Below are positions 128 to 64,000 of a DNA stretch of 64,000 nucleotides, in pieces. The stretch comes from Ceratodon purpureus. Taxonomy: Eukaryota; Streptophyta; Bryopsida; Pseudoditrichales; Ditrichaceae. Positions within the stretch are counted from its first letter, which is position 1. Each line of letters opens with the position of its first letter. The notes below the pieces were generated by a model. It had not been told where the DNA came from. It saw only the letters and a program-made list of their open reading frames with translations, and did no database searches. The stretch covers positions 29,749,452 to 29,813,451 of the forward strand of contig CM026426.1 in the NCBI GenBank assembly GCA_014871385.1, read 5' to 3'. The position numbers and the translations under genes are program-made.

Positions 128-387
128 TGTGGAAAGTGATTTCCACGGTTGACACACCGGAATACTAATTCCGGTAGGAAAATGATAAAAATTTAAAAAT
201 TTTCTGTTAGGAATACGGAAGTACTACTTAGATAAGTGAAACAACTGGTTAAGACGGTTGGCCGAATAAATAAGAGAACCGGAAGGTCAGCCGGGTGAGA
301 TCCGGTCGTCTAGGATGAAGGAGAGGAAGCACCGTCCATGTGACAGAACTCTGACACCGCAGACTTAAGGGTAACGACCGAAAGGTA
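128..387 (+). mobile_element. Partial LTR of gypsy family B (U3 start)
   Basis: This stretch matches, almost base for base, the start of the LTR at 13,194 (offset 13,066): both begin TGTGGAAAGTG and share the same AT-rich and CCGG-rich text up to about position 387, where they diverge. No polypurine tract precedes this copy, so it is a solo or truncated LTR, or the 5' LTR of a rearranged element. No target duplication could be identified. Confidence 0.8.
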
Positions 388-1372: not shown

Positions 1373-1419
1373 AACCCAAATATTGATTTTCCTTTTGTTT
1401 ACTTTTATTTTTCTAATTT

Positions 1420-1458
<39 letters not shown>

Positions 1459-1764: not shown

Positions 1765-2151
1765 ATGGAAGACCTTAGAGATATTGTTGTATCACTTGCT
1801 GATGATATTTGTCCATTTCAACCATATGTTGAGGTGGAGGACGAAGAAGAGGTGATGGCCAACAGCCAAGGGCGTCCTTTGACAACGGATGTTGACGTGG
1901 AACCGGATGTAAGAGCTGACCCTCCACGTTCAGAAAATTCGGATGATATCAGAGTGTTGGAGGAGGACGCAGATGTGCCTTTGCAACCTCATGCGTACTC
2001 CAAGGTTGGAAAGATCCCAAGGGGAACCTATTCCAGGGAATCAGTGAATCGGAGGCGGGGAGGTGGGCCATTGCTCAAACGTTCATACCGAGGACACTTG
2101 CCAAGTGTGGGAACGAAAGTGAATGGAAATGTAGTTTGTCCTGTAGTATAG
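1765..2151 (+). CDS. Hypothetical acidic-then-basic small protein
   Basis: An ATG-initiated ORF of 128 codons. The first 70 residues are acidic (an EDEEEV cluster near residue 25) and the last 50 are basic and Gly/Arg-rich (NRRRGGG near residue 95). I do not recognise a domain. No splice signals or neighbouring partners clarify its role. The composition is more protein-like than the flanking DNA, but it could be a chance ORF or an exon of a larger, decayed element gene. Confidence 0.35.
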   Translation: MEDLRDIVVSLADDICPFQPYVEVEDEEEVMANSQGRPLTTDVDVEPDVRADPPRSENSDDIRVLEEDADVPLQPHAYSKVGKIPRGTYSRESVNRRRGGGPLLKRSYRGHLPSVGTKVNGNVVCPVV

Positions 2152-2471
2152 TCAGAGGCTGGCAGTCCTCCTGATAGTGTAGTGGGCAACCCTAAACGTG
2201 TTAGGTTCGAAGATTAGGACATCTAATAACAAGTATATGTTTGCCGTAATAAATGGTACATGTCAGGGGTTACGAGATATATAGTGCACTTGTTCAGGAT
2301 AGAATGTATTGAAATAGAGTGCAATCAATGCGAGCAACAAAGCCTTTAATATAATGAAAAAGTCAATACAGCTTCTAAATAGCTGACTTAGTACATGGTA
2401 TATTACTAAAATCATTCACTACGTGATCAATGGTCATTGTGGAAATGGCAGTTCTAAAGTAGGAGGGCTAC

Positions 2472-11831: not shown

Positions 11832-13183
11832 CCCCCGCGACCTTCCGATCGTAGGAGAGACATCTTCCGTCTACCATATTCAGGAAGACGAAAAGGAGGA
11901 CCAGGATCTTCAGCGGATTAAGAACTATCTCTAGACCCAAAGGTATCCGGAAGGACTGAGTAGGGAGGAGAAAAGTGTGTTTCAGCACCGGGTGGCACCG
12001 TATTTTCTAGTCGGAGAATTACTTTTCAAACTAGGGGCGGATGAAAAACTCCGACGCTGCCTAGAACCCATCTATCGCCGGAAGGTCATCCGGGCTCTGC
12101 ATGATGGACCGGCCGGAGGACACTATGCATCAGTCATCACCGTATAGAAGATTCGCGAGGCCGGATACTGGTGGCCACACCTTCACCGTGATGTTCATCA
12201 ATTTATAAAAGAATGCGACCCCTGCCAACGGATAGGAGCTCCTGCCGTCCGGCATCACTGGCCGCTAACTCCCATTGTCCCCTTAGCACCGTTTGAAAAA
12301 TGGGGAGTGGATTTTATTGGGCCAATTCAACCATTAGGCACTCAGAGGCACCGGTACATCATTTTGGCGACGGACTACGCCACGAAGTGGGTAGAAGCTA
12401 GGGCCACCCGGAAGAATGACGCCGAGACATCCGCCCGGTTCATATTCGAAAGGATAATGATGCGGTTTGGCCATCCGTTGGAAATAATGAGCGGCCGGGG
12501 GACACATTTCCTGAACGAAGTGGTGGCCGATCTGACCAAGCAGTACGAAGTCAAACACCGGAAGACCACACCGTACAATCCCAAGGCAAACGGATTGACG
12601 GAACGTGCCAACGGAATAATTTGTAAGATTCTGACCAAGGTAGTTACCTCACATAAGACGGACTGGGACCGGAAACTGACCTCAGCCGTCTATGCGTATA
12701 ACACGGCACACAAGAGTGCGACCGGACGGACTCCGTATTATCTGGTATACGGACAGGACGTACTTCAGTCCATGGAAACGGAAGTAGAGACGCTGAGGGT
12801 GCTCGCAGCCAACCACGGAGATAAAACGGATGCCCTCGACCACCGTCTACAGGTCATCGACCGGATGGAGGAAGACCGGATGGAGGCATTGGAAAGAACA
12901 AAGGAGCTCCAAGCCAAAAGGAAGGAAGTGTATGACAAGCGGATCACGATGGACAAAGGGATCAAAGTAGGGGGATTAGTTCTAGTCTATGACAGCCGGT
13001 ACAAGAATTTTCCGAGTAAGTTACATACTCGGTGGATGGGACCGTTCCGGGTTGATAAGATTTATTCCAATGGGTCATTACAACTTTCAGATCTAGAAGG
13101 CTACCCAATGGACACTAGGGTGAATGGATCCCGGGTCAAACTGTACAAACCGGATGACGTTCACGAGGACGCTCACGGGTGAA
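11832..13183 (+). pseudogene. Family B gypsy Pol fragment: integrase
   Basis: One frame (with TAG at 11,932-11,934 and 12,145-12,147) covers the RNase H-integrase linker, the zinc-binding region (CDPCQR), the integrase core and the C-terminal GPFRV region, ending at TGA just before a polypurine tract. It aligns throughout with family A integrase at 46,390-47,707. The catalytic triad is damaged: D in GVDFIGP and E in GLTERANG remain, but the middle Asp of the usual SDRG motif is Gly (codon 12,493-12,495). Everything upstream (Gag, PR, RT) is missing; the junction with the host-like gene is near 11,832. Confidence 0.85.
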
Positions 13184-13190: not shown

Positions 13191-13572
13191 TAATGTGGAA
13201 AGTGATTTCCACGGTTGACACACCGGAATACTAATTCCGGTAGGAAAATGATAAAAATTTAAAAATTTTGTGTTAGGAATACGGAAGTACTACTTAGATA
13301 AGTGAAACAGCCGATTAAGACGGTTGGCCGAATAAATAAGAGAACCGGAAGGTCAGCCGGGTGAGATCCGGTCGTCTAGGATGAAGGAGAGGAAGCACCG
13401 TCCATGTGACAGAACTCTGACACCGCAGACTTAAGGGTAACCACCGAAAGGTACGACGCACGCGGGAAGAATGGCTGCGACCATTAAAGCGCCGCCGGTC
13501 GCGACCGTCCAATGATGAAAGGCTACGACCGTCCGTCATGATGAGCTACGAACGGGCAAGAGTGAGGACAGG

Positions 13573-13579
13573 TATAAAA
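13573..13579 (+). promoter_or_regulatory. TATA box in family B LTR
   Basis: TATAAAA lies about 200 bp upstream of the LTR-borne ORF start at 13,781, at the same relative place as the family A TATA box at 38,475. Confidence 0.55.
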
Positions 13580-13780
13580 GGAGGAAGAGCAACCGTGCTC
13601 CTCCTTTCTTTTGTCATTTTGTGGCGCGCTGGATCCTTGTGTCCCACGGCGAAGGGCGCAGTTAGGGTTGGACGGTAGGAGAGAGACGGTGAGACGAAAG
13701 TGTTTCCGTTAGGTGAGGGATTGTGGTGAGGATCGTGCGTGCAGGTGTTACCGGAGTGACGGTGAGGAGGACTTAGCAGA

Positions 13781-15655
13781 ATGGGTAGAAAGGGGAAGGA
13801 ACCGGCGGAGGAAGGACACTTGTTCAGGGTACAACGGGTCATGCCGTTGATGCCGGTAGACGACGACGAGAAGGAGCTCCTCCGGACCACCTTAGATGCC
13901 ATGGGCTGTGCGCTCCTATTGGACAAGGCGTGGGGTTGGAAACATTCCTTTCCGGCCCAGAAGATCCTCGTCAAGAACCCCGAAAATTGAGGAACCATCC
14001 GGGGAGAACCGGAGCAGTGGACGGCACAAGACTGGAGGGATACATATGGTTTCAAGAACGTTGGAGAGATCTCAGCACCGGAGACCCAGGAGTTTGTGTG
14101 GACGTATATCAAGGGGCCCGGAGACCGGAGAGAAGGGTGGGACTTGGATGACATCAAGGATCCGGAGGCCCGGAGGGTAGTAGGGTTTATGAACCCTATT
14201 TTCCATCCGGAAAAGCCCAAACGGATAACCATCAAGTGGGCGTCCATTTTCATTGGGGCCATGATTGGTGAGTTCTCAGTAGACTGGGGCCTCATGATAA
14301 AGACGATAGTCGACCGGCAGGTAGCCAATCTCCGGAAGACCAAGAAACAGGCCACCTACCTTCCGTCTTTCCTCATTCACCTCTACCGTCACCGGGGGCT
14401 GTTGAACCCTAAGGAGATCCTGGAGTACGATGAAATCAAGAGCCTGCAGCAGTATGCCGAACCGGAAGAGGTGTCCGATCAGGACGATGATGAGGATTGT
14501 ACCGAGGTCTCTCCCACGCCGGCTAAGAGACCCCGTCCTAGCCCGGAGAAGAGGCAGCCGTCCGGATCACCTCGGACTCCCACCCCGACCAAGCGAACCC
14601 TGAACACAGAAGTCCAAAAACCCACCGGACCACCGGAGCACACCGGGGACCCGTGCCAGGACTTAGTCAACCTTTCGGAGCAGGTGTCGGCGTATGCACG
14701 GTTCCTATAGTCAACTAGGCAGACGGAGGGCCGGTTGGCTAAGGAGGTAATTGCCCTTACGGGCTCGGACCGGTAGGAGGAGTGCCTGAATATTCTTCGC
14801 AAGCACCGGGACTTGGCCAGTCTCTAGACCAAGCACATGGACCGGATAGAGCAGTACCGGGAGAGGATTCACAAGCTCGAGCAGGAGGTGCGTGATGCCC
14901 AGAAGGATTACAATGACGCTCGTGACCGGGCAGCCTATGCCATCCAGTCGGTCGTCGAGGTTAAGGCCACTTTAGCCCTTCCGGTGGATGTGGCAAATCA
15001 GTGCGCCGTTTACCAAGCCTTCTTGACCCGTCAACCGGATCCGGTAACCTCAAAGATCGTGAAATTCATGCACGACCGGACGCAGGTGATGAGGGACACT
15101 TGAGTGTAGATGATGAACCTTGTGGAGATAATCAGTGCCGCGAAGGCCGGTCCGTCAAGACCACCAGAGCTACCGGCAGATCGGGAGGAGCCTAGACCAC
15201 CGGCCCCAACCAGGGAACCGGCACCGCTGCCACTTCCAGCCTCTCCGGTACGGTCGACCATCCGGTCAGTCCAACAGGATATAGGACAGCCGCTGGAGGA
15301 TCCTATCCCGGATACCTTGAGCAGTTTGCACACTCTGCCCAATTTGGCTGGAATCGAGACTGTTAACCCCGGAAGCATCGCTTTGGAACCGGACCAAGGC
15401 CCACCAACGGAAGACTTTTTGCCGGTACAGGGATCTCCGGAACATCTCCAGGTGGATCTCAGCGCAGTTCCGGTGGCGGCACGATCTCCATCCCCGGCGG
15501 TTCAAGCAGGACGATCCCGGAAGGCCAGCGACCCGTCGGCAGCTGATGCTCCGGAAGAAGGCCCCTCGCTGAAGAGGCTAAAGAAGGGATTACAGAAGAA
15601 GGAACAGATGGATGGAACCCGGCACAGTCCCCGGTTCGATAAGAACAAGGAGTAG
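13781..15655 (+). pseudogene. LTR-borne ORF, family B, broken by stops
   Basis: A single frame of about 624 codons homologous to the intact ORF at 38,634-40,829. Shared parts: the N-terminal TIRGEPEQW/TIRGKPTLW region, the helical block around 14,180-14,440 (FMNPIFHPEKP and FSVDWG, matching FLVPILYPQKP and PVNWAA of family A), an acidic/Pro linker, a coiled coil (14,837-15,100) and a basic tail. It is interrupted by TGA 13,988, TAG 14,708, TAG 14,774, TAG 14,825, TGA 15,101 and TAG 15,107, but has no frameshift. Function is unknown; conservation between two families indicates it was once under selection. Confidence 0.75.
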
Positions 15656-16736
15656 AAGTTAGGATAAGGACCGGATAAAATGGCAGCGACTAACGATGGG
15701 GCTCAAGTGCACCTGGCTGCAAATCGGGATAGATAGCGGCAGTAAGTAGGAATAGAAGGCGGCCACCGGTCCGGGATTCCCAGATCCAAGATCCGGAATT
15801 TCTGGATCTCGGTTGGCCACTTGGTTGCTTTAGGATCGATAGGTTTTTGTATTTAAGCTGGACGTTTTTCCAAGGCCGGGGCCTTGTTTTGTACGCCGTT
15901 TTTGTTGTTGCAATTGAGAATATACTTTTGGATTTGTTGTGTCAACCGGCTGCTGACGGGTCCGTTGCCGTATGGTTTGTTGGTACTATTGTCTTCAGTA
16001 GGGTTCCGGAGGAGTGTTGAACAGTGGGGTAGTCTGGAGAGCGCCCGGAGAGATTGGGGAGGTGTCAAGAATCGAGTGTTGACGGTTCCCAGTCCCGGAA
16101 GGAGTCCGGAGGGAAGGAGAGACGTACTGCAGCAGGGCTGGTAGTCTTAAGGACACGGAGGGCCGTGTGTACACCGGGATCCGGAAACGGACCGGTCGCT
16201 TCCTGTAGAGGGGATAAAAGCCGGATGTCCTACTGCGAACCAATCCGGAAGGGAGATGATATAGTTAGAATGCCGTACAGCCGTAAGGTTATGTCATTGT
16301 AGTATGAGTTCCGTATCCATAACCGGCACTGAGTAGCTATCCGGACCGGTACCTCGCCATACGGAGGGATTATTACTCCACTTCTCGGGTGGTAGATAGG
16401 AACAGTGGGGTGTCCAGCCACTTTAAGTCACGGGACGGTGGAAAATCCAGGCACTTGAAAGGATAGACGGATCAGTGGGAATCGGCCACTAGTCTAAAAA
16501 GCCGGAAAATAGGAACGAGGCAAAAACTACCGGGTTCAGCCAACCGGTCGAAAGACGGACTACGGTTGGATCCGGGTGGTGATTTCCGTTATGATCTAAA
16601 AGGAGGAAAACTATAGGTCTTCGTGGGAACGAACACGGAGTGGTTTACTTTGGAGGGTATTTAGTGTGAATTAAGTGCCTTCCGGAGGAATACGGATACC
16701 ATGTCGTGCTACATCCGGATCACGTGATATGGTGCA

Positions 16737-17025: not shown

Positions 17026-17064
<39 letters not shown>

Positions 17065-38104: not shown

Positions 38105-38109
38105 TATGA
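38105..38109 (+). repeat. Target-site duplication, left (TATGA)
   Basis: TATGA immediately precedes the 5' LTR and recurs at 50,264-50,268 directly after the 3' LTR, as expected for gypsy integration. Confidence 0.95.
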
Positions 38110-38474
38110 TGTGGGATCCGAGAAACTCAGAATAAACCGGAAGAGCCCCAGCCGGCGTAAGTATTCCATTTATTTTTCATTTTTTTGGTTAATTAGGTAA
38201 AAACTGGCCAGACACTAGCAGCATTAGCAGTTAACGCAAATCGGATACTCCAGAAACGTTAAAACAGTTAACGTAGGAAGTGTTCCCGGAACCTGGGTTC
38301 CGGAAACTCGGAAGATAAGATACGGAACGAGTGGACGATCCGAGTACTGACCGTTACTGTAACCGCGTCAAGGATCCGAAGCGACGCGGAAGTCATCATG
38401 ACTCGGATAGGCGTTTACCCCGGTACGTTGGCGGCTGCAATTACGGGCCGCCACAGCGTTTATTATGCCTGGGG

Positions 38475-38481
38475 TATATAA
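38475..38481 (+). promoter_or_regulatory. LTR promoter TATA box
   Basis: TATATAA sits 159 bp before the LTR ORF start; transcription would begin near 38,505, so the ORF would be the first reading frame of the genomic RNA. The same box is in the 3' LTR at 48,109. Confidence 0.6.
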
Positions 38482-38633
38482 GCGAGGGTGTTAGGGTTTG
38501 GAGTTCCTTTTTGCGAACTGGGAGTAGAGAGTGAAAGAGCGGTGAGGTGTCTTTGACTTTTCCGATTCACCGGCAGTTGGATTGCCGGGTTTCTTGCTGT
38601 CGGATCGTAGAGGGAGAGAAGTGAGGAGTAGAG

Positions 38634-40829
38634 ATGGCACGCGTGCAGTGTTGCGTCCTTAGCCCCGGAACTCCAGTGAAGGAATCGGATATGGAGGAAC
38701 TGATCACCGACCTCACTCGGATGAGGTGTGAGGGATTGTTGGCACGGCCGTGGTTACTGAAGAGTGAGGTGATGGTGAGGGAGGTCCTGGAAGGTCCGGA
38801 CAACCGGTGGGATAATACGATCCGAGGCAAGCCCACGCTGTGGAATGCGGAACAGTGGGCGGAAGCTTACGGTTTCGAGCAGAAGGGACTCCTTTGGGCG
38901 ACCCGGACGGATCAGTACGTGCAGGATAGGTTCCACGGGAAGATCCATAGGAACAATGGATACGAGATAGACGCCTGCAAGGATAGGAGGCAGAGGCAGG
39001 TCTTAGCTTTCCTCGTTCCGATCCTGTATCCGCAGAAACCGGCACAAGTTACCATTACGGTCGGGAATACCATCCTCGGAGCGTATACAGGAGAACGTCC
39101 GGTGAATTGGGCTGCACTCATGGCGGAAGTGGTGCAGAAGATGGTTCCGACGATCGGAAAGAAGCCGACCCCACTCTCCCCTTACCTCTTTCACCTTTAC
39201 CATGCGTATGACTTGCTGACCGATAAGGAGGACGAGACGTATACGCACGCGAAGAACTGCCTCAACTTCTCGGAGATTCCGCCCAGAATGGAACCCGATC
39301 CGCGAGGTGAGCCCTCTGATACAACGGACTCGGAAGATGAGGACGATACGAGGGAAGTTCCGAACCCTGGCGCTGCTAGGGCTCAGTCCAGGTCGAGATC
39401 GGAGCAGGCTCCGTCACGACACGCGGAGCCGTCTACGGTCCGGGGAGATCCGGAACGGAGAGAGGTCAGTTCCGATCGGGGATTTCCGGTGGACCTGTTT
39501 CGGGGGATTCGGGAGGAGACTCACCGGGCTCAAGCTTCTTATGATCGGATCGAAACCCTGTTCCGGAGGGTCTGTACAGCTCTGGGAGGGTGCTTACCGG
39601 AAGAGGTGATCCGAGAAGTGGAGTTGTTGAAGGATGCCCCAACTCTCCGGAGTGAGAAGAAGCGGCTGGAGCTTCAGTTGCAGGAGCTGACGAAGGAGCT
39701 GGCGGCAAAGAGTGACGAGATCCGTAAGTTCCACGCCGAGCAGGAGGGGACTTTAGGGGAGCTTCGGAAGTTGGTGGGAAGTTCGGGAGCGGTAATCAAC
39801 AAGGCCCGGCTGTTTGATGAGAACGTAGTGCAGCCGGCCGATTTCGAGGACAAGCAGAAGATCATCAAGATCCTCTCCAAATGCGAGCACTCGATGAACA
39901 TGATCCTGAAGAAGGTCCGGCAGCTGCTCAATCCGAGCACCGGAAGTCCCAGTCTCGTAGTCGCTGGCCGGGGTCTTCCGCTCCCCGGATCGCCCTCTCG
40001 TGCCGTGGTAGGAGAATCTCGCGGAGTTGGGTTCCGAACCCCGATAGGGAGTAACCTCCAAGCAGCAGAACAGATGACGGTCGAAGAGGCCGCCATGACA
40101 AATCGGACGATTGCGGAAGCGATCCGGGAAGTCCAAGCACAGGCGGCGTCACCCGGAACCACTACGGTCCAGCAGAGCTGCGCGATCCCCAGAGGACAGG
40201 TGGAGGTGACCGGAACGACAGTCACCGAGAGGCGGATCGAGGAGAGGACGGTTTCGGAACAGGTGACTCGGACCGTGCCACCGGATGTTCTTCCACGAAT
40301 CGGAGAGGAAGTGATCATTGCGAATTACCGAGGGGAGGTAGCGGGACCGGAATGGGGACGACCTATTTCACCACCCGGACGGACCCGAGTAACTCAGGAG
40401 GGGGGATTGACCCCTTCACCCACAGCCAAGACCGGAACGGTGACGCCTACTCCCACCGGAACGCCAGCAGCGGGTTCCCCTCCGAACACTGTCGGTGAGT
40501 TCCGGAGGTTGCGGAAAAGGAAGGAGCCGATTACGATTTCCGAGTCCGACTCAGAGACGCATGGGAGCTCTCCGGTCAGGACCACGGGAACTGAAACTCA
40601 GACTCCGACGTCCGGAACCCCTCCCGCACATATGATCCCGAAATCGCCCAATTCTCCCAAGCCCCGGATCGTTACCCGGTTGTCCTTAGAGGCTCAGGAG
40701 AGAGAGTCAAAGGCGGAACGGAGTGCTAGGCGCAAGGCGGCACGAGCAGCAGAGGCGGGCGGATCAGAGCCACGGGTGACCAGGTCGAAGGATCGCGAGC
40801 AGGAGAGCCACAAGAAGACAAAGAAGTGA
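38634..40829 (+). CDS. LTR-borne ORF, family A, intact
   Basis: 731 codons from ATG (38,634) to TGA-TAG. Residues 1-230 form a helical domain with TIRGKPTLW, FLVPILYPQKP and ERPVNWAALM. Then come an acidic Ser/Asp linker (220-290), a coiled coil (about 310-420), Pro/Ser/Thr-rich segments and a basic C-terminus (about 690-731, SARRKAARAAE and KKTKK) that could bind nucleic acid or direct nuclear import. A broken homologue lies in family B at 13,781-15,655. The PVNWA motif recurs in C1-C3. The helical block faintly recalls the so-called putative plant transposon protein domain, but I cannot confirm this. No enzymatic motif; function unknown. Confidence 0.8.
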   Translation: MARVQCCVLSPGTPVKESDMEELITDLTRMRCEGLLARPWLLKSEVMVREVLEGPDNRWDNTIRGKPTLWNAEQWAEAYGFEQKGLLWATRTDQYVQDRFHGKIHRNNGYEIDACKDRRQRQVLAFLVPILYPQKPAQVTITVGNTILGAYTGERPVNWAALMAEVVQKMVPTIGKKPTPLSPYLFHLYHAYDLLTDKEDETYTHAKNCLNFSEIPPRMEPDPRGEPSDTTDSEDEDDTREVPNPGAARAQSRSRSEQAPSRHAEPSTVRGDPERREVSSDRGFPVDLFRGIREETHRAQASYDRIETLFRRVCTALGGCLPEEVIREVELLKDAPTLRSEKKRLELQLQELTKELAAKSDEIRKFHAEQEGTLGELRKLVGSSGAVINKARLFDENVVQPADFEDKQKIIKILSKCEHSMNMILKKVRQLLNPSTGSPSLVVAGRGLPLPGSPSRAVVGESRGVGFRTPIGSNLQAAEQMTVEEAAMTNRTIAEAIREVQAQAASPGTTTVQQSCAIPRGQVEVTGTTVTERRIEERTVSEQVTRTVPPDVLPRIGEEVIIANYRGEVAGPEWGRPISPPGRTRVTQEGGLTPSPTAKTGTVTPTPTGTPAAGSPPNTVGEFRRLRKRKEPITISESDSETHGSSPVRTTGTETQTPTSGTPPAHMIPKSPNSPKPRIVTRLSLEAQERESKAERSARRKAARAAEAGGSEPRVTRSKDREQESHKKTKK

Positions 40830-41772
40830 TAGATTCCTCTCTCTGCCACTTGTCGTAACTTTCCGGATTTATAGGAGTAGATTCCGGATCGGGAGATCCG
40901 TTCTAGTCGTAAAGTAGAATTCTAGGTAGATAGTTAGGGATTAGGGTTTTGATTGAACTGCCGGCGCCGCCGCTTTGTAAAAGCCCCTGCTTACTTAAAC
41001 CGGGCAGGCGATGCGGTCCGGGTCTTCGTTTTGCATGTTTTCCCCCTATATTCCTTATCAGTAAAGTATTTGTGTTTTGTAAGTACTGTGCGTGATTTCC
41101 CGCTAAGTGTGAATGATCCGGGAAGGATATGGGAGTTCCGCTGTAGCTCGGATAGGAAGGTGATGGGAGTTGCGACGAGACCCGAACCGGAAAGGAAATG
41201 GGATTGAGCGGAAAGATTTAGCGGATTGTCGTAGGAGTGAAGCCTCACTGTTCCGTCCCCAAATCAACCTCATACGGAATAGCCGTCGCTAGGGTCGAAG
41301 CGGATCAAGAACTACTTGGTCGGGCTCCCTGAACTTCTGAAGAGGTTCCGTGCACAGTGAGAGGGGGAGTCGGAACGTGGTACGGGTCGCCTAGGGATAA
41401 TCGGATCCTGGTTCTCCCAGATCCGGATTGGTTTGTCGTTGTAGTCCCACGGATCGGAGAGGATCGTTTGTGTGACCTGCTGGCCAGAGTACTCTAGGAC
41501 AGTTGTGAGACGGTAACTGATCCGAGACGTTGGGGTTTGTGGACGAAACACCTAATGAGAGAAGAATAGAGAAGGAGATAGTTCGGGAGTTACGGTCCGA
41601 ATACACTATCCGAGCAGTGGCAAGGCTCGGAACGATTAGAAGTAACTACTTGGTGAAACACTATTGAATCCCTGGACGATACTCGGAACCTAGTGACAGT
41701 ACGGAAGTTTACGCTCAATTAGAGCACTATCCGGATGATAGTTGCGTTTCCGTGTTCCGACACGTAAAAATC

Positions 41773-41790
41773 TGGCGCCGCTGCCGGGGA
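41773..41790 (+). other. Primer-binding site, tRNA-Asp type
   Basis: TGGCGCCGCTGCCGGGGA begins 10 nt after the LTR. It is complementary to the 3' end expected of a tRNA-Asp and resembles primer-binding sites of plant Athila/Tat-type gypsy elements. Confidence 0.8.
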
Positions 41791-41960: not shown

Positions 41961-43631
41961 ATGGTTGGGGCGCAACCGGAAGAGTTAGGGGGAAGAAGAT
42001 CCACTCGGTTGCTACAGAAGAGGGGAAGAGTTTTGGTACACGATCTAACGGGAACGAATCTACTTCCCCGGATCCAGACTGCTGTAGAACGAGAAGGAGA
42101 CGTAATCGTGGTATCGTTGGCCGGAACCTCCACAGCCGGAGCAGGTACAGCTCCAGATCCGGAAGAAGAAGAAGTTGTAGCTGACGAAGTCGAAGCCGAC
42201 GCAGGAGGAGAAGAGGAGACCGAGGAAGAGGAAGAAGACGAGGAAGACAATCCAATGGCACCCTCTACCCGACTGAAGTACAACAGATTCAAAGGGGACG
42301 GAAGTCAAGACGTGGACGAATGGCTCTGTGAGTTCGAATCCATCGCTCTGGCCAATCAGGAAGATCCGGATGCGAAGAGGAGGATATTCCAGGGTCTTCT
42401 GAAGGGAGAAGCTCTCCAGTGGTACCAAGACGTTCCGGAACGTACACGTAACGACTGGACCAGTTTCGTGACCTTGTTCCGACGTACGTTCCGTGAGGCC
42501 GGAGGAGAAGCTCGCGCACTCGGAAAGCTGAGTCGGATGACGATGAGATCTTCCGAATCAGTACGGAAGTACAGTCAGAGGGTAAAGGCGCTCATACAGA
42601 AACTCACTACGGCCATAGCTCCGAGTGTACAAGTGGAATGGTTTGTCGCCGGATTCCCAGAGGAGATGGGGTTTCAGATACGACAAACCCGTCCCGCCAC
42701 ACTTCAGGAAGCCGTGGAAGCAGCTCAGAACTATGAGAACTCGGCCCAGTCTCTACGGAAGTCCCTGAAGCATACCGAGAAGCGGGGTAAGAAGATCCGG
42801 AAGGAGAGAGAGCGCCGTCGGAGGCACGAGTCCTCCTCGGAAGATTCCGACTCTACCAGTAAGAGCGATTCTACTTCATCCAGTTCCGATCAGTCGGAAG
42901 AGGACTCCAGGGGAGCCTCGAAACGCCGAGGCGGTTCCAGTAGAGACTCCCGGCCTAGACGGAACCGAGAGTTGATCAAGGTGAAGGTGGAGGATGACGA
43001 TTCTCGGAAGGTCATGAAGGAGATGAAGGAGATCCGAGAATCGATTGCCGAACTCAACGTTCACCTTTCGGAGAATCGGAAACCTCGTAAGATGATTCCA
43101 ACCAGCAGAGCTAATGTGTGGTGTGCTAACTGCGGAAAGCAAGGACATTATCCTCCGGAGTGTACTGAACCCCGCCAGAAACGAATTCACTACGTCCATC
43201 CGGAAGAAGAGGTATACTTTGCCTATCCGGAAGAGGAGGAGTTTCAGATGGAGGAGTACCAACCTGTGTATCAGGTTCAGACCACTTACGGGCGAGGGAA
43301 AGCTCCGATCCAGATAGCTCGTCCTCCCGCCGGATACCGCATTCCACAGAACGTTCCGGGTAGGCCGATGTACCAGAAGCCGACCCACGGGTACTGCTTT
43401 AACTGTGGGAGCCCGGATCATTACGCGCCTAATTGTCCGTTTGAGCGACAGGGGCAGGGAGCACCGCGGATCCTTCCGTGCCAAAATTGCGGAGAGTACG
43501 GACATACGGCTCCTCAGTGTGCCAAACCGGCACAACCCCGCCCGACTTTCAAACAGGTGGAGGTCCCTCCGAGAGAGATGACTGGGCTAAACTACGGTCA
43601 CTCGGGTGGGATAGAGAATCCGGACAAATGA
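41961..43631 (+). CDS. gag: Gag polyprotein, family A
   Basis: First in-frame ATG at 41,961 (the frame is open from 41,802). A long Glu-rich segment (42,164-42,250) is followed by a retrotransposon Gag capsid-like domain (KYNRFKGDGSQDVDEWL to FVAGFPEEM), a basic/Ser-rich linker and three CCHC zinc knuckles: CANCGKQGHYPPEC (about 43,123), CFNCGSPDHYAPNC (43,399) and CQNCGEYGHTAPQC (43,481). Three knuckles are more than the usual one or two. The ORF ends at TGA 43,629 and Pol follows in the same frame. Gag forms the particle and packages the RNA. Confidence 0.92.
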   Translation: MVGAQPEELGGRRSTRLLQKRGRVLVHDLTGTNLLPRIQTAVEREGDVIVVSLAGTSTAGAGTAPDPEEEEVVADEVEADAGGEEETEEEEEDEEDNPMAPSTRLKYNRFKGDGSQDVDEWLCEFESIALANQEDPDAKRRIFQGLLKGEALQWYQDVPERTRNDWTSFVTLFRRTFREAGGEARALGKLSRMTMRSSESVRKYSQRVKALIQKLTTAIAPSVQVEWFVAGFPEEMGFQIRQTRPATLQEAVEAAQNYENSAQSLRKSLKHTEKRGKKIRKERERRRRHESSSEDSDSTSKSDSTSSSSDQSEEDSRGASKRRGGSSRDSRPRRNRELIKVKVEDDDSRKVMKEMKEIRESIAELNVHLSENRKPRKMIPTSRANVWCANCGKQGHYPPECTEPRQKRIHYVHPEEEVYFAYPEEEEFQMEEYQPVYQVQTTYGRGKAPIQIARPPAGYRIPQNVPGRPMYQKPTHGYCFNCGSPDHYAPNCPFERQGQGAPRILPCQNCGEYGHTAPQCAKPAQPRPTFKQVEVPPREMTGLNYGHSGGIENPDK

Positions 43632-43634
43632 CGG
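43629..43634 (+). promoter_or_regulatory. Gag-Pol stop in readthrough context (TGA CGG)
   Basis: The only stop between the Gag and Pol frames, which are otherwise continuous, is TGA followed by CGG. UGA CGG is a known leaky stop context in several plant RNA viruses. Short complementary segments downstream (TTCGCG near 43,635 and CGCGGAA near 43,658) could form a stem. Confidence 0.55.
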
Positions 43635-46049
43635 TTCGCGACGGAACTACAGGAGGGCGCGGAAGTACCAGTACACAGAATATCAACCCGTAGTTCCGCT
43701 AGAGAACGTGCCCAGGAACCGGAGCTTCCAAAATCCCGGAAGACCAGGAGGAGGGTAAGATCCAGAAGAGTGGATTCGGATTCGGGATCCGAACCCTCTA
43801 CGGTAACCAGAGCTTTACCAGAAGAAAATGACCGTCCAAGAGCGGAAAATGGGGTGGAAGGAGGGAACCTTCCGGAAGATATCAGCGAGGAAGTTCGGAA
43901 AGAACTCACGGATCCCCCTGTCCGGAAGATCACCAAGCCTTCGGTCCGGTTTGATGACGTTCCGGTGATTATTCCTGCCGATCCCAGAGTGGACGAGTAT
44001 GACATTCTTGGGGACATCAAATCCCTCAAGGCAAATGTCACGATTGGACAGTTGCTCCATGACAATGTGAATTACCAGAAGGTAATCCGAGAGGCATGGA
44101 CGAAGCGGAGGCGCCGAGGGGTGAAACTTCCGTCTGTAGCTACTAACTTCTTACAGGTTGAGGATCACGGAGCCCTGGAACTGACGGTGCTAATAGAAGG
44201 ATGTGCTATCCCGAAAGTTCCGGTAGATGGAGGATCCGGTGTGAACCTGATGTTGGAGGATACGGCCTTTGAACTCGGATACACCTCGTTCGAATCCACC
44301 GATCAGGTGTTACGAATGGCGGATCAATCTAGAGTTAAACCCGTGGGAAGGTTGTCCCAAGTTCCGACCACGATCGGAGAGGTAACCTACCTCTTGAATT
44401 ACGTGATAATCCGAGTTAGTACGGGCCGTCCCTTTCCGGTGTTGTTGGGAAGACCCTGGCTATACATGGCGCGAGTCCTCGTTGATTGGGGAGCCAAGGA
44501 GTTCGTGCTCGGAAAAACCAATCAACGGATTCCGTGGAAGATGGATGGATATCTAGGGGAAACCAGTGGCTCGGATGGGTATACGTCTGATTGGTCCGAC
44601 CCGGAAGAGGAGGATGACGAAGTATTTAGTTATTTCGTGAATCAGTTCTCGGAAGTTACCGAGGAGGACTTCCGATTTCATAATCCGATCAGTGAGCAAC
44701 CCCAACCATCACCGGAGAACGTGAAATTCCCGGTACTAGAGGATCGCTCTCTCGGAGAAGGAAGTGTCCCACTCTCAGCTGAATGGTTCCGACAACAGGT
44801 CGAGGAGGGAAACCTGCCCGCCATGGGTCTCGATCCGGACACCCCTGTCCGGGTGTGGAGCGCATGGACGGATCAGGGAGAGGAACAGGAATCGGAACGA
44901 GTCAAGAACGTTGTGAAACCATCCGACTATGATAAGGTGGAAGTAGCCCCCGGAAAGACATTTCTGCTAGGGCGAAGCATGAGCAAGGAGCAGAGAAAGG
45001 AGTATGTGGATTTACTAAAGGAATATTTAGACGTATTCGCTTGGTCACCATCCGACCTCAAGGGAATACCTCCGGAACTCGGCCAACATCATATAGATTT
45101 GGTTGACGGATCAGTCCCGGTCAGACAACGCCAGTACAGGCTCAATCCGAAGTATTCTCTGATGGTGAAGGAAGAAATCGATAGCCTCCTGGAGGCCGGA
45201 TTCATTTATCCAGTAAATAATTCCGAGTGGGTATCGCCCATAGTCGTCGTTCCGAAGAAAGTTGGCTCGGATGGGAAAGTAAAGATCCGAGTTTGTCAAG
45301 ATTTTCGGAAACTGAATGCGGCCACAAAGAAGGATTACTTTCCGTTACCTTTTACGGACATTATCCTCGATCACGTGGCAGGGCAGGAGTGCTACAGCTT
45401 TCTTGATGGATTTTCCGGTTACAACCAGGTGTCGATCCGGGAAGAAGATCAGCTGAAGACGACCTTCACCACGGAATGGGGGACGTTCGCCTTCAACAGA
45501 ATGCCCTTCGGACTGTGTAACGCTCCCGGAACATTCCAAAGGCTGATGGTGGATATTTTCCGAGATTTCTTGAGGCATTTTCTAGAAGTCTTCATCGATG
45601 ACTTCGCGGTGTTCAGTAAGTGGAAGGAACATCTCGAGTACCTCCGAAGGACCTTCCAGAGGTGCAGGGAAACCGGACTGAAATTACACCCCAGAAAATG
45701 TTTTATGGGGATGATTTCCGGAATTCTTCTCGGGCACATCGTAAGTCGGAACGGGTTGGAAGTCGATTCGGATAAGGTACGAGCTATCCTTATTCTAGTG
45801 TCTCCCACCAACGTCCGAGAGGTCCGGGGATTCCTAGGATGCGTCGGATACTACAGGAGGTTTATTATTGCATATGCCAAATTGGCAGCCCCATTAACGG
45901 AACTGTTGAAGAAGGAAGAAGAGTTTTTGTGGACGGAACGGAGGCAGCAGGCGTTCGAGGAACTGAAGAAGGCCTTGACCACCGCTCCGATACTATCAGC
46001 ACCGGATTGGTCGAAGGAATTCCATGTGACAATCGACGCTTCCGGGTGA
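43632..46049 (+). CDS. pol: Pol, family A: protease, RT, start of RNase H
   Basis: Open in the Gag frame from the TGA CGG junction. The protease has VDGGSG (44,223), a DGG variant of the usual D[ST]G site. RT spans about 45,190-45,830 with FRKLN, FPLPFTD, MPFGLCNAPGTFQRLM and the catalytic FIDDFAVF (Asp-Asp at 45,597-45,602), followed by the gypsy connection (GFLGCVGYYRRFI). RNase H starts with its first Asp in TIDASG (46,025), then hits TGA 46,047: a deletion shifts the frame and the sequence resumes at SLAERKYTTTE in the frame of the next entry. About 25-30 residues between the first Asp and the Glu are missing. Confidence 0.92.
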   Translation, partial: RFATELQEGAEVPVHRISTRSSARERAQEPELPKSRKTRRRVRSRRVDSDSGSEPSTVTRALPEENDRPRAENGVEGGNLPEDISEEVRKELTDPPVRKITKPSVRFDDVPVIIPADPRVDEYDILGDIKSLKANVTIGQLLHDNVNYQKVIREAWTKRRRRGVKLPSVATNFLQVEDHGALELTVLIEGCAIPKVPVDGGSGVNLMLEDTAFELGYTSFESTDQVLRMADQSRVKPVGRLSQVPTTIGEVTYLLNYVIIRVSTGRPFPVLLGRPWLYMARVLVDWGAKEFVLGKTNQRIPWKMDGYLGETSGSDGYTSDWSDPEEEDDEVFSYFVNQFSEVTEEDFRFHNPISEQPQPSPENVKFPVLEDRSLGEGSVPLSAEWFRQQVEEGNLPAMGLDPDTPVRVWSAWTDQGEEQESERVKNVVKPSDYDKVEVAPGKTFLLGRSMSKEQRKEYVDLLKEYLDVFAWSPSDLKGIPPELGQHHIDLVDGSVPVRQRQYRLNPKYSLMVKEEIDSLLEAGFIYPVNNSEWVSPIVVVPKKVGSDGKVKIRVCQDFRKLNAATKKDYFPLPFTDIILDHVAGQECYSFLDGFSGYNQVSIREEDQLKTTFTTEWGTFAFNRMPFGLCNAPGTFQRLMVDIFRDFLRHFLEVFIDDFAVFSKWKEHLEYLRRTFQRCRETGLKLHPRKCFMGMISGILLGHIVSRNGLEVDSDKVRAILILVSPTNVREVRGFLGCVGYYRRFIIAYAKLAAPLTELLKKEEEFLWTERRQQAFEELKKALTTAPILSAPDWSKEFHVTIDASG

Positions 46050-47707
46050 GCCTGGCGGAACGGAAATATACTACCACTGAACGGGAAGCCTTGGCGGTAG
46101 TATACGCCTGCAAGAAGTTCCGACACTACCTTCTCGGATACAAGATCGTGTTCCATACGGATCAGGACTCCCTGAAGTATTTGGTGAACAAACCGGATCT
46201 CTCAGGGCGTATTGCACGATGGATCTTGCTGCTCCGGGAATTCAACTACGAGGTAGTAGTGAAACCGGGTAAGGCCAATGCCAACGCTGACTACCTGTCC
46301 AGGATGCGAGGCCCGGAAGCAGTCTCGGATATCACCGCCACGTTTCCGGATGAATTTCCGGAAGAGGCGGAGGTATTTCACATTTCCGGAACGGAGGAAT
46401 CCGATTATTCGGAGATTATCCAGTATTTAACACAACGGAGGTACCCGGAGGGATTTACGCGGGAGGAGAAGATGGTATTTCAGAATACAGTAGCTCCTTT
46501 CACACTGATCCGAGGGGTACTTTTCCGGATGGGACCGGATGATGTATTACGGAGGTGCCTCGAGGAGTCCGAACGAAGGCAGGTCATGAGGGCCTTACAC
46601 GCCGGACCCTCGGGCGGCCATTTCGCCTCGGAGACAACCATCAAGCGGATCCGATCAGCCGGATATTGGTGGCCTTACCTCTCCCAGGACGTGAAGGAAT
46701 TTGTAGGGCAGTGTGACCAATGTCAAAGAACCGGGGCACCCTCGTTCCGGAACCACTGGCCCCTCACTCCCATTATTCCCTTGGCTCCGTTTGAAAAATG
46801 GGGGATAGACTTTATCGGACCGATCAATCCGGTCACAGCCCGGAAGAGGAGATACATTATCCTGGCTACGGATTATGCGACCAGATGGGTAGAGGCAAGA
46901 GCAACGGTGAAGAATGACGCCGCAGCCGCAGCCACATTCCTCTTTGAAGAAATAATGATGAGATTTGGACATCCGTTAGAACTGGTGAGTGACCGGGGAA
47001 AACATTTCCTGAACGATGTCATCATCAATATCACGGAACGGTATCTCATCAAGCACCGGAAGACGACCCCTTATAATCCGAAAGCGAATGGGCTGACGGA
47101 ACGAGCTAATGGCATCGTCGGAAAGATTCTGAACAAGATGGTCTCGGCTCATAAGACGGATTGGGATCGGAAGCTCCCTTCAGCTGTACACGCCTACAAT
47201 ACCAGTGAGAAGAAAACCATGGGTAAGAGTCCGTTCTTCCTAGTCTTTGGACAATCCGCAGTTCACGGAGTGGAGCTGGAGGTAGAAACCTTACGGGTTA
47301 TGGCTGCCCGTCACGGGACGAGAGTCGAGGATCCGGGGTACCGGATCGTGGCGTTACAGGATCTGGAAGAAGTCAGGAGAGGCGCTCTACAGCAAGCTGT
47401 AGATGTCCAGGCAAAACGTAAGGAGACCTACGACAAAAGAATTCCTAAGGACAATAAGGTGATAGAAGGAGGCTTGGTGCTCTTATACGATAATCGGCAC
47501 CAAAAGTTTCCGGGAAAGTTACATACGAGATGGATGGGACCTTACCGGGTTACGCGGATCTTTGAGAACGGATCATTACAACTGGCGGACCTCCAGGGAA
47601 ATAGCTTCGAAACCCGGGTGAACGGATCCCGAGTGAAGAATTACAACCCTGAGGAGTTCACAGACACCGAAGGAAGCGAAAGTCCGGAAGGGGAGGAAGA
47701 AGAATAG
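46046..47707 (+). CDS. pol: Pol, family A: RNase H remainder and integrase
   Basis: In a different frame from RT because of the RNase H deletion. RNase H continues with TTTEREALAVVYACKKF, HTDQDSLKY and NADYLSR. Integrase follows: zinc-binding region (HAGPSGGH and CDQCQR), core with GIDFIGP, SDRGKHF and GLTERANG carrying the DDE triad, and a C-terminal GPYRV region with an acidic end at TAG 47,705-47,707. The triad is intact, unlike family B. The ORF ends 23 nt before the polypurine tract. Without a frameshift event it cannot be made as part of Gag-Pol. Confidence 0.9.
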   Translation: MSLAERKYTTTEREALAVVYACKKFRHYLLGYKIVFHTDQDSLKYLVNKPDLSGRIARWILLLREFNYEVVVKPGKANANADYLSRMRGPEAVSDITATFPDEFPEEAEVFHISGTEESDYSEIIQYLTQRRYPEGFTREEKMVFQNTVAPFTLIRGVLFRMGPDDVLRRCLEESERRQVMRALHAGPSGGHFASETTIKRIRSAGYWWPYLSQDVKEFVGQCDQCQRTGAPSFRNHWPLTPIIPLAPFEKWGIDFIGPINPVTARKRRYIILATDYATRWVEARATVKNDAAAAATFLFEEIMMRFGHPLELVSDRGKHFLNDVIINITERYLIKHRKTTPYNPKANGLTERANGIVGKILNKMVSAHKTDWDRKLPSAVHAYNTSEKKTMGKSPFFLVFGQSAVHGVELEVETLRVMAARHGTRVEDPGYRIVALQDLEEVRRGALQQAVDVQAKRKETYDKRIPKDNKVIEGGLVLLYDNRHQKFPGKLHTRWMGPYRVTRIFENGSLQLADLQGNSFETRVNGSRVKNYNPEEFTDTEGSESPEGEEEE

Positions 47708-47730
47708 TGTTCGCGGGGACTCTCACATTT

Positions 47731-47740
47731 GAAAATGGGG
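47731..47740 (+). other. Polypurine tract, family A
   Basis: GAAAATGGGG, three bases before the 3' LTR start. Confidence 0.85.
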
Positions 47741-47743
47741 TAA

Positions 47744-50263
47744 TGTGGGATCCGAGAAACTCAGAATAAACCGGAAGAGCCCCAGCCGGCGTAAGTATTC
47801 CATTTATTTTTCATTTTTTTGGTTAATTAGGTAAAAACTGGCCAGACACTAGCAGCATTAGCAGTTAACGCAAATCGGATACTCCAGAAACGTTAAAACA
47901 GTTAACGTAGGAAGTGTTCCCGGAACCTGGGTTCCGGAAACTCGGAAGATAAGATACGGAACGAGTGGACGATCCGAGTACTGACCGTTACTGTAACCGC
48001 GTCAAGGATCCGAAGCGACGCGGAAGTCATCATGACTCGGATAGGCGTTTACCCCGGTACGTTGGCGGCTGCAATTACGGGCCGCCACAGCGTTTATTAT
48101 GCCTGGGGTATATAAGCGAGGGTGTTAGGGTTTGGAGTTCCTTTTTGCGAACTGGGAGTAGAGAGTGAAAGAGCGGTGAGGTGTCTTTGACTTTTCCGAT
48201 TCACCGGCAGTTGGATTGCCGGGTTTCTTGCTGTCGGATCGTAGAGGGAGAGAAGTGAGGAGTAGTTATGGCACGCGTGCAGTGTTGCGTCCTTAGCCCC
48301 GGAACTCCAGTGAAGGAATCGGATATGGAGGAACTGATCACCGACCTCACTCGGATGAGGTGTGAGGGATTGTTGGCACGGCCGTGGTTACTGAAGAGTG
48401 AGGTGATGGTGAGGGAGGTCCTGGAAGGTCCGGACAACCGGTGGGATAATACGATCCGAGGCAAGCCCACGCTGTGGAATGCGGAACAGTAGGCGGAAGC
48501 TTACGGTTTCGAGCAGAAGGGACTCCTTTGGTTTACGGTTTCATAATCCGATTAGTGAGCAACCTCAACCATCACCGGAGAACGTGAAATTCCCGATACT
48601 AGAGGATCGCTCTCTCGGAGAAGGAAGTGTCCCACTCTCAGCTGAATGGTTCCGACAACAGGTCGAGGAGGGAAACCTGCCCGCCATGGGTCTCGATCCG
48701 GACACCCCTGTCCGGGTGTGGAGCGCATGGACGGATCAGGGAGAGGAACAGGAATCGGAACAGGTGACTCGGACCGTGCCACCGGATGTTCTTCCACGAC
48801 TCGGAGAGGAAGTGATCATTGCGAATTACCGAGGGGAGGTAGCGGGACCGGAATGGGGACGACCTATTTCACCACCCGGACGGACCCGAGTAACTCAGGA
48901 GGGGGGATTGACCCCTTCACCCACAGCCAAGACCGGAACGGTGACGCCTACTCCCACCGGAACGCCAGCAGCGGGTTCCCCTCCGAACACTGTCGGTGAG
49001 TTCCGGAGGTTGCGGAAAAGGAAGGAGCCGATTACGATTTCCGAGTCCGACTCAGAGACGCATGGGAGCTCTCCGGTCAGGACCACGGGAACTGAAACTC
49101 AGACTCCGACGTCCGGAACCCCTCCCGCACATATGATCCCGAAATCGCCCAATTCTCCCAAGCCCCGGATCGTTACCCGGTTGTCCTTAGAGGCTCAGGA
49201 GAGAGAGTCAAAGGCGGAACGGAGTGCTAGGCGCAAGGCGGCACGAGCAGCAGAGGCGGGCGGATCAGAGCCACGGGTGACCAGGTCGAAGGATCGCGAG
49301 CAGGAGAGCCACAAGAAGACAAAGAAGTGATAGATTCCTCTCTCTGCCACTTGTCGTAACTTTCCGGATTTATAGGAGTAGATTCCGGATCGGGAGATCC
49401 GTTCTAGTCGTAAAGTAGAATTCTAGGTAGATAGTTAGGGATTAGGGTTTTGATTGAACTGCCGGCGCCGCCGCTTTGTAAAAGCCCCTGCTTACTTAAA
49501 CCGGGCAGGCGATGCGGTCCGGGTCTTCGTTTTGCATGTTTTCCCCCTATATTCCTTATCAGTAAAGTATTTGTGTTTTGTAAGTACTGTGCGTGATTTC
49601 CCGCTAAGTGTGAATGATCCGGGAAGGATATGGGAGTTCCGCTGTAGCTCGGATAGGAAGGTGATGGGAGTTGCGACGAGACCCGAACCGGAAAGGAAAT
49701 GGGATTGAGCGGAAAGATTTAGCGGATTGTCGTAGGAGTGAAGCCTCACTGTTCCGTCCCCAAATCAACCTCATACGGAATAGCCGTCGCTAGGGTCGAA
49801 GCGGATCAAGAACTACTTGGTCGGGCTCCCTGAACTTCTGAAGAGGTTCCGTGCACAGTGAGAGGGGGAGTCGGAACGTGGTACGGGTCGCCTAGGGATA
49901 ATCGGATCCTGGTTCTCCCAGATCCGGATTGGTTTGTCGTTGTAGTCCCACGGATCGGAGAGGATCGTTTGTGTGACCTGCTGGCCAGAGTACTCTAGGA
50001 CAGTTGTGAGACGGTAACTGATCCGAGACGTTGGGGTTTGTGGACGAAACACCTAATGAGAGAAGAATAGAGAAGGAGATAGTTCGGGAGTTACGGTCCG
50101 AATACACTATCCGAGCAGTGGCAAGGCTCGGAACGATTAGAAGTAACTACTTGGTGAAACACTATTGAATCCCTGGACGATACTCGGAACCTAGTGACAG
50201 TACGGAAGTTTACGCTCAATTAGAGCACTATCCGGATGATAGTTGCGTTTCCGTGTTCCGACA
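47744..50263 (+). repeat. 3' LTR of family A, chimeric (2,520 bp)
   Basis: Matches the 5' LTR over 47,744-48,531 (offset 9,634) and 48,755-50,263 (offset 8,501). Between them 48,532-48,754 replaces 1,356 bp of LTR with 223 bp, nearly all matching pol 44,676-44,898. See the chimeric ORF entry. Confidence 0.95.
48268..49330 (+). pseudogene. Chimeric LTR ORF in the 3' LTR
   Basis: The first 74 codons equal the LTR ORF, ending at a TAG (48,490-48,492) where the 5' copy has Trp. The pol-derived patch 48,539-48,761 (source 44,676-44,898, with at least three transitions) then joins the LTR ORF C-terminal half at a 7-bp microhomology, TCGGAAC. At the left junction, TTTACGG (48,532-48,538) looks like recopied text from the nearby TTACGGTTTC. 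The result from 48,538 on is an open frame fusing the Pol linker between protease and RT to the C-terminal half of the LTR protein. Whether it is expressed is unknown. Confidence 0.9.
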
Positions 50264-50268
50264 TATGA
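50264..50268 (+). repeat. Target-site duplication, right (TATGA)
   Basis: Matches 38,105-38,109. Confidence 0.95.
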
Positions 50269-55759: not shown

Positions 55760-56328
55760 AGTTTGCCTTTGTTGCCACCGCCTTGATTTCTAGCCATTTA
55801 ATTATCAACAGTAGATTTAAATGTTTTCATCAGTCAAATGAAAATTCTAAGTTCTTTAAATTCTTATACCGAATGGCTACGATTTGTATAAGGATTTTTA
55901 AGGATAATGTCACAACTATGTTAAGTTGCTTTTGCAAAGTCAAAATATCCTAATGAATAAGTCTTACTTTCTAATCAACTTTCAAAAGAATTTTGTTTAC
56001 ATTCTATCCATTACAAAATTTTAATTAAACTATTTTAAAAAATTGATTATAAAATATTAATGATAACTTGACTACATTTTTTATTAACATAGAAATACAA
56101 TCTACATAGCTATGATATTGAAAGATCTACTCGTCAATTTTGAGTTAATTAGTTGTTGCCAAAAATTAAAAGAATGAAATGGTAAACAATTTAAAATAGA
56201 AGTCGTTTTAAATTATAGAAGTGCAAAATTGTTAGAAATTTGCACTAAAAGTTGCATTTATTTATGCACTAAATACTGCATAACTTCATGCTCTTAAGAT
56301 TGCATTAATTTGCGCACTTATGGACAAC
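55760..56328 (+). repeat. Left arm of a 569-bp inverted repeat
   Basis: Base 55,760 pairs with 64,000 and base 56,328 with 63,432 with no length difference; the segments I compared are identical when one is reverse-complemented. The arm starts AGTTTGCCTTTGTTGCC and ends CTTATGGACAAC. The AT-rich text has no long ORF. The 7.1 kb between the arms contain the MYC_N exon and gene C3. Confidence 0.92.
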
Positions 56329-63431: not shown

Positions 63432-64000
63432 GTTGTCCATAAGTGCGCAAATTAATGCAATCTTAAGAGCATGAAGTTATGCAGTATTTAGTGCATAAAT
63501 AAATGCAACTTTTAGTGCAAATTTCTAACAATTTTGCACTTCTATAATTTAAAACGACTTCTATTTTAAATTGTTTACCATTTCATTCTTTTAATTTTTG
63601 GCAACAACTAATTAACTCAAAATTGACGAGTAGATCTTTCAATATCATAGCTATGTAGATTGTATTTCTATGTTAATAAAAAATGTAGTCAAGTTATCAT
63701 TAATATTTTATAATCAATTTTTTAAAATAGTTTAATTAAAATTTTGTAATGGATAGAATGTAAACAAAATTCTTTTGAAAGTTGATTAGAAAGTAAGACT
63801 TATTCATTAGGATATTTTGACTTTGCAAAAGCAACTTAACATAGTTGTGACATTATCCTTAAAAATCCTTATACAAATCGTAGCCATTCGGTATAAGAAT
63901 TTAAAGAACTTAGAATTTTCATTTGACTGATGAAAACATTTAAATCTACTGTTGATAATTAAATGGCTAGAAATCAAGGCGGTGGCAACAAAGGCAAACT
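63432..64000 (-). repeat. Right arm of the inverted repeat, cut by window end
   Basis: Reverse complement of 55,760-56,328. The arm may continue beyond the window. Confidence 0.92.

Follow-up and report, generated by a model that had tools for sequence, protein, structure and literature searches.

Evidence for a selected protein-coding gene inside the long terminal repeats of a Ty3/gypsy retrotransposon lineage in the moss Ceratodon purpureus

Organization of the locus

The window, a stretch of 64,000 nucleotides of Ceratodon purpureus DNA (G000:C6:29749452-29813451), comes from a genome of 362 Mb and lies on a 110.5-Mb contig, C6, that is probably a sex chromosome. In some mosses, C. purpureus among them, the sex chromosome is larger than any other chromosome (PMC10619864, in part).

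An open reading frame (ORF) of 731 codons, from ATG to stop, occupies 38634..40829 on the plus strand and begins at the first ATG past the TATA box region. It sits in the 5' long terminal repeat (LTR) of a retrotransposon, element A. This LTR (38110..41762, +) is 3,653 bp long, begins with TGTGGG, ends with CGACA and is paired with 47744-50263; other A copies have LTRs of similar length with similar ends. The target-site duplication (TSD) TATGA is found at 38105..38109 on the 5' side and at 50264..50268 on the 3' side. With the ORF, the LTR ends and both TSDs located, the arrangement is as described in a sequence-only reading of the window, which had placed the ORF wholly inside a 5' LTR bounded by TG...CA and a TATGA duplication.

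The internal region of element A has the parts of a Ty3/gypsy element. A primer binding site (PBS), TGGCGCCGCTGCCGGGGA (41773..41790, +), follows the 5' LTR, as the same kind of motif does behind other 5' LTRs; we take it to resemble the tRNA-Asp type. A polypurine tract (PPT; 47728..47743, +) stands just before the 3' LTR at 47744. The gag gene (41961..43631, +), whose start ATG was placed by comparison with its relatives, encodes a Retrotrans_gag domain and CCHC knuckles. It is followed by pol (43632..47707, +), with a protease region, reverse transcriptase, RNase H and integrase. Pfam matches occur in the order Retrotrans_gag, RVT_1, RT_RNaseH, Integrase_H2C2 and rve, which is the Ty3/gypsy order, and the paired TG...CA LTRs, PBS, PPT and 5-bp TSD fit the same assignment. 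No chromodomain, the mark of a chromovirus, was present among Pfam matches up to E 1, a search that a very diverged chromodomain could escape.

The gag and pol genes share a frame, with one UGA between them and CGG directly after it (43629-43634). Because UGA CGG is a known leaky stop context, readthrough of the gag-pol stop is likely. The predicted RNA fold past the gag stop was not special (z -0.06). An ENPxK-like motif ends 38 of 116 Gag relatives, as counted with a simple pattern and with fragments included in the 116.

The same reading had called the element young and gypsy-like. Both descriptions hold, but this copy is defective. Its pol is broken within RNase H near 46050, and part of RNase H is missing. 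The 3' LTR (47744..50263, +) is rearranged and its ORF interrupted: about 1.3 kb, corresponding to LTR positions 38898-40232, has been swapped for about 229 bp of pol (48533..48761, +; 97.8% like 44670-44898). The rest is nearly identical to the 5' LTR, and one codon ahead of the pol insert is a stop. The rearrangement resembles the outcome of template switching or conversion, either during insertion or later.

Copies of the LTR gene across the genome

The A copies analysed were the best 61 of 2067 candidates, ranked by protein match, a choice that favours open, conserved copies. All 61 matches span residues 1-731 at 97-100% identity. In the search table 57/61 of these best copies were free of stops, and 56/61 were open by our own reading; the others stop at codons 729, 121, 167 and 479, the last in both LTRs of one element.

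Twenty pairs of LTRs, on the same strand and spaced 9,710-9,712 bp (9.71 kb) apart, could be built from 39 ORFs, and each pair carries the ORF in both LTRs. All 20 ORFs of the first ten pairs were open. Nine of these pairs have LTRs that differ at 1-7 bases. Compared position by position, the tenth has 309 differences, 5 of them within the ORF, and presumably contains a length shift. The terminal redundancy proposed for the gene is thus seen in 20 elements elsewhere, but the window's own 3' LTR has no intact ORF. In one case (L049-L051, C1:18183182-18206256) three LTRs with identical ORFs stand in a row at 9,711-bp spacing, a tandem LTR-retrotransposon structure.

The stop at codon 479 is identical in both LTRs of its element (L064/L065), which apparently moved with a truncated ORF. 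If so, either the element has no strict need of the gene in cis or the first 478 residues suffice; the case could reflect supply in trans or a dispensable C-terminal part.

Older copies were recovered with a protein relative, P0003. This search returned mostly broken copies, with 12/65 rows free of stops, and four (L073-L076) were picked from these 12. Along its whole length the A LTR aligns with L073, L074 and L075 at 83-92%, and their ORFs are open at 737-740 codons. L076 has a 735-codon ORF and lacks the LTR end.

Solo LTRs

Twenty-two A copies, the window's included, were unpaired, and the flanks of 20 were examined (L068 was left out). Ten of the 20 have an exact 5-bp TSD and no PBS, and 8 of these 10 hold an open ORF, one of them at 729 codons. 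The rest comprise five loci with a PBS and two with a PPT, which are parts of elements, and three that are ambiguous. L073, L074 and L075 are also bounded by exact 5-bp repeats. L075 is nested in an older LTR of its own kind, which resumes past it with five bases repeated. In total there are thirteen solo LTRs with exact 5-bp duplications, 11 of them with an open ORF, three of which had been selected for openness. The 5-bp TSDs of these LTRs and of the window's element A vary (for example TATGA, GTTTC, CATTC and AGGTT). At the sequence level, solo LTRs do have the coding capacity that had been suggested for them.

A second family carries the gene

A second element family, B, is represented in the window by a 3' LTR (13194..16713, +; end good to about 1 base), which is preceded by a PPT and by the end of a pol gene. 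This part of pol (11833..13158, +) encodes integrase and is 60% identical to that of A. The only partner of the B LTR within the window is the first 260 bp of another copy (128..387, +; 98%). The B version of the gene (13781..15655, +) occupies the same place in its LTR, past a TATA box, GTATAAAAG, at 13572..13580 (+). Its frame is 33% identical to A over 260 aligned codons (A residues 11-285), and the open piece 14096-14707 matches the gene profile at E 1.2e-23. A homologue at this position with its frame preserved had been claimed; position, profile match and freedom from frameshifts uphold this, but the window copy has six in-frame stops before its last.

Intact B copies exist elsewhere. 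Among the 150 scored of 1502 candidates, about 46, counted by hand, match without a stop and have open frames of 616-633 aa in the stretch that matches. Two B pairs were fetched. The LTRs of L069/L070 are 99.86% identical and have TTTTT as TSD; a PBS follows the first LTR, a PPT precedes the second, and both hold an open 619-codon ORF. In L071/L072 the ORF is open in one LTR and cut at codon 496 in the other. The window B LTR (its 1-3521) aligns lengthwise with L069 at 89.6%. The L069/L070 pair, with its ORF open in both LTRs, puts the B LTR at about 3.5 kb. Clearly, many elements carry the gene in both LTRs, families A and B both have it, older A copies have it too, and it is open in solo LTRs.

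Transcription signals in the LTR

The ORF had been said to lie downstream of an LTR TATA box, and such a box, GTATATAAG, was located at 38474..38482 (+), with transcription presumed to start about 30 bp downstream. The sequence TATATAAG is present in 60/60 fetched A LTRs, and the 30 bp around the TATA box show zero variation. From the presumed start to the ORF there is no ATG for 131 nt in A and 179 nt in B. The leader is free of ATG in 60/60 fetched A LTRs and in five of six further leaders. In single-sequence shuffles its freedom from ATG gave P values of 0.043 and 0.026 for mononucleotides, and unremarkable values of 0.34 and 0.14 for dinucleotides. TATA box and leader fit the proposal that this would be the first ORF of the element RNA.

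About 200-280 nt past the stop codon is a T-rich stretch (41030..41109, +), a putative poly(A) region by its composition and low diversity. Nucleotide diversity (pi) in its core is 0.0049 in A, as against 0.040 before it and 0.023 after. A T-rich stretch is common to A and B, roughly 150-350 nt past the stop. The TATA box, the ATG-free leader and this constrained stretch suggest a transcription unit inside the LTR. If the stretch is read as a poly(A) region, R would be about 2.6 kb long and contain the gene. Nine ATGs lie between the ORF stop and gag, so that gag would need splicing, a second promoter or unusual initiation.

We propose the following model. The LTR would be a complete transcription unit of TATA box, ATG-free leader, ORF and T-rich poly(A)-like region, and the ORF, in R or U3, would be the first gene on the element RNA. 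A short LTR-only mRNA would encode the protein, and the genomic RNA would arise when transcription reads through the first poly(A) region.

The gene may instead lie in U3, as does sag of mouse mammary tumour virus (MMTV). Genomic RNA would then start downstream, near 41,080, with most of the protein made from the 3' LTR or by way of a U3 promoter of its own. A TATA word does occur within the T-rich stretch, and sag mRNAs are started from several promoters (PMC4667437, in part). Without such a start, moreover, gag would stand behind a 731-codon ORF and nine further ATGs on one RNA. On the other hand, an invariant TATA box upstream of the ORF and an ATG-free leader are found in both families, and the clearest T-rich poly(A)-like region comes after the ORF. 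We regard this arrangement as a real but less probable option. Splicing from the leader to an acceptor past the ORF, giving a gag-first mRNA and leaving unspliced RNA to serve as both LTR protein message and genome, is rather unlikely. The leader has weak donors, and a pyrimidine-rich acceptor-like site ends at 41,061, one of three with near-equal scores; these raw scores are modest.

The LTR-encoded protein and its relatives

A search of 5.8 billion proteins found 12 relatives: one is 98% identical, one is 56% identical over the full length, and the remaining ten match 52-58% of the length at 31-35%. A profile search found 21. Among these, one reaches 76% identity over 44% of the length, and others have 33-48% over 26-44%. 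Residues 101-160 are best conserved, at 88% identity to P0003 and 60% to a further relative, P0008. They are followed by an acidic linker, a segment rich in A, E, K, L, Q and R (320-380), a long part rich in P, T, S and G, and a basic tail, whose motif PR.TRS also occurs in P0003 and P0008.

Sequence searches of Pfam, PHROGs and the PDB gave no convincing match (best E 0.0048, with many weak ones to coiled-coil proteins), and no Pfam family was assigned to the protein (P0001) up to E 1. An Rfam search gave no match. AlphaFold predicted a mostly helical structure for the first 447 residues (pLDDT 62.5, pTM 0.43, both weak), and in a fold search of the PDB nothing fell below E 1 (best E 1.1). 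Searches found no relatives of the gene in viral contigs, prokaryote genome contigs and plasmids, none of Pol or Gag in viral contigs, and none of Gag in genome contigs.

Among 8000 candidates scored, 116 Gag relatives were found, with identities of 99 and 83%, then mostly 43-64%. The organisms named among them are Marchantia polymorpha and C. purpureus itself (locus M758_UG081400, where UG presumably denotes the U chromosome). In a family B element of this genome, the Gag start has 75% identity to M758_UG081400 over 61 residues and 90% to another protein. Since the Gag identities (99, 83, 43-64%) roughly parallel those of the LTR gene (98, 76, 56, 31-48%), joint descent of the two is suggested.

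The domain picture is of an N-terminal globular domain, an acidic linker, a coiled coil, a long disordered part and a basic tail. It leads us to suggest, tentatively, that the protein could be a nuclear accessory factor that aids expression or replication of the family, for example by countering silencing or assisting RNA, and that supply in trans is possible. This role is a guess, because the structure prediction is weak and no PDB fold fell below E 1.

Selection on the gene

Variants were counted in 60 fetched A copies and the window copy. After removal of a length variant (L032) and collapse of identical ORFs, 53 distinct sequences remained. Variants shared by at least two copies comprise 118 synonymous, 34 nonsynonymous and 1 stop (pN/pS 0.094), and singletons comprise 89 synonymous, 56 nonsynonymous and 2 stop. 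Under neutrality about 69-74% nonsynonymous changes are expected. By codon position 1, 2 and 3, shared variants occur at 3.2, 2.6 and 19.2%. Differences between the two LTRs of one element, in 20 pairs, comprise 12 synonymous and 16 nonsynonymous (pN/pS 0.44), and the contrast with shared variants is significant (Fisher P 0.0005).

Since shared variants are mostly synonymous, selection acts while the element multiplies. The within-element differences were found in the same way and are nearly neutral, which argues that bias from choosing copies by protein match is not the source of the signal. As their pN/pS of 0.44 is below 1, some bias remains or the events are few. These results show that the A gene is protein-coding and under purifying selection, and that selection is relaxed after insertion.

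The same constraint is seen over longer times. Against the four older copies, three of which are solo LTRs, the A gene gives dN/dS of 0.25-0.28 at dS 0.24-0.62. Against intact B it gives about 0.41 over 572 aligned codons at 30% identity with the frame kept, at a dS (2.0) near saturation. Computing dN/dS had been proposed as a check on the gene, with values near 1 between families, together with a lack of transcripts, as the refuting outcome; from the pN/pS of 0.09 within the family to the A-B comparison, every value lies below 1. Within B, dN/dS is 0.37 for L069 against L071 and 0.55 for the window's broken copy against L069; these values and the window copy itself show that decay occurs too.

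Three readings without a protein gene that serves the element fare poorly. A host gene captured by the LTR, or a solo LTR domesticated by the host, is very improbable. Old solo LTRs with open ORFs do exist, as such a reading would have it; against it, both LTR ends stand at their expected places in 18/20 copies of one set and 19/20 of another, two families have the gene, selection relaxes once an element has inserted and Pfam gave no convincing match. Selection at the DNA or RNA level, for packaging, dimer formation or promoter function, is slightly less probable still as the keeper of the open frame. The TATA box, the leader and the T-rich regions do vary even less than the ORF, but constraint falls on codon positions 1 and 2, and the frame is kept between A and B at the identity and dN/dS just given. 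A chance or decaying ORF without protein function in a GC-rich LTR can be dismissed, for although LTRs are ordinarily non-coding (PMC4667437, in part, and said of retroviruses) and many older copies are broken, the codon-position bias and pN/pS refute it, the protein has its full-length relative at 56%, GC3 is 0.66 in the ORF against a GC of 0.49-0.50 in the LTR parts on both sides, and the longest ORF in 1000 dinucleotide shuffles of the A LTR was 351 codons (mean 133) against the 731 observed.

Taken together, we put at about 90% the probability that this is a real, selected, LTR-borne gene of a moss Ty3/gypsy lineage, lying entirely inside the LTR.

Comparison with known systems and implications

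The nearest parallel is MMTV sag. Most of sag lies in U3 of the LTR, and of 527 shortlisted sag-containing mammal contigs 490 appeared to be solo LTRs (PMC4667437, in part). The moss gene shares with sag and with sag-bearing endogenous betaretroviruses a location mostly in the LTR, carriage by solo LTRs and long conservation (PMC4667437, in part). With a coding sequence on both LTRs and on solo LTRs, it appears to work like a sag-type LTR gene. However, sag belongs to animal retroviruses and lies in U3, whereas the moss gene belongs to a plant Ty3/gypsy element, is the first ORF past the LTR TATA box, has 619-740 codons and encodes a protein that no library recognised; the likeness is one of arrangement.

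Among plant elements, Athila, Grande, RIRE2 and Retand also have, in addition to gag-pol, a conserved gene of unknown function. Their extra ORFs are internal and in most cases stand between pol and the 3' LTR, whereas the moss ORF sits wholly within the LTR (PMC7264820, in part). No LTR-internal ORF was found in part of the text of PMC7264820 or by a phrase search of the whole, nor in the parts covered of the Retand paper (PMC11963269), a plant-wide survey (PMC6317226) and a Physcomitrium transposable element paper (PMC7466625). More widely, no protein gene inside the LTR of a plant retrotransposon was seen among the papers listed on LTR ORFs, additional ORFs and non-seed-plant elements. Cassandra and retrozymes, in the accounts covered in part, do have functional sequence inside plant LTRs, but this is a 5S RNA-type promoter or ribozyme sequence and not a protein gene.

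Phygy of Physcomitrella and Selgy of Selaginella are likewise non-seed-plant gypsy elements outside the chromoviruses. By description they differ from the moss element in being rather short, with a polyprotein across nearly the whole interior; Phygy also prefers NCGN targets (all PMC6317226, in part), whereas the 5-bp TSDs of the moss element vary. LTR genes such as MMTV sag and internal extra ORFs in plants were known before; what appears, from the papers covered, to be new is a selected protein gene in a plant gypsy LTR.

This gene, of 600-740 codons, is doubled by reverse transcription at every insertion; solo LTRs are not coding-dead, and coding sequence can fill kilobases of R or U3. LTRs are usually regarded as non-coding control DNA, and repeat annotation by known domains overlooks this gene. 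Near-neutral differences between the LTRs of one element, set against constrained differences between elements, offer a clean test for an LTR gene that serves its element, and the test is applicable to other genomes.

It is conceivable, if doubtful, that each LTR is a self-contained gene, so that LTR-LTR recombination leaves a working gene behind. Genes on solo LTRs might then act in trans on the family, as helper or regulator, and outlast their parent elements. If this is true, LTR-LTR recombination, which normally erases the genes of an element, would fill the genome with solo-LTR genes.

Other features of the window

Two further ORFs, at 52801-53445 (-) and 34601-35800, are alike to the LTR gene by eye but were rejected as its kin, with profile E values of 0.3 and 0.74. 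Minus-strand ORFs at 51946-53445, of which 52801-53445 is the N-terminal one, encode a charged, coiled-coil-like part and a 'PVNWA' motif. A tandem array of about 12 copies of a 108-bp unit (8376-9725) is open in several frames on both strands, and a run of 36 C is present at 17028-17063. A perfect 569-bp inverted repeat (55760-56328 and 63432-64000) is cut by the window end.
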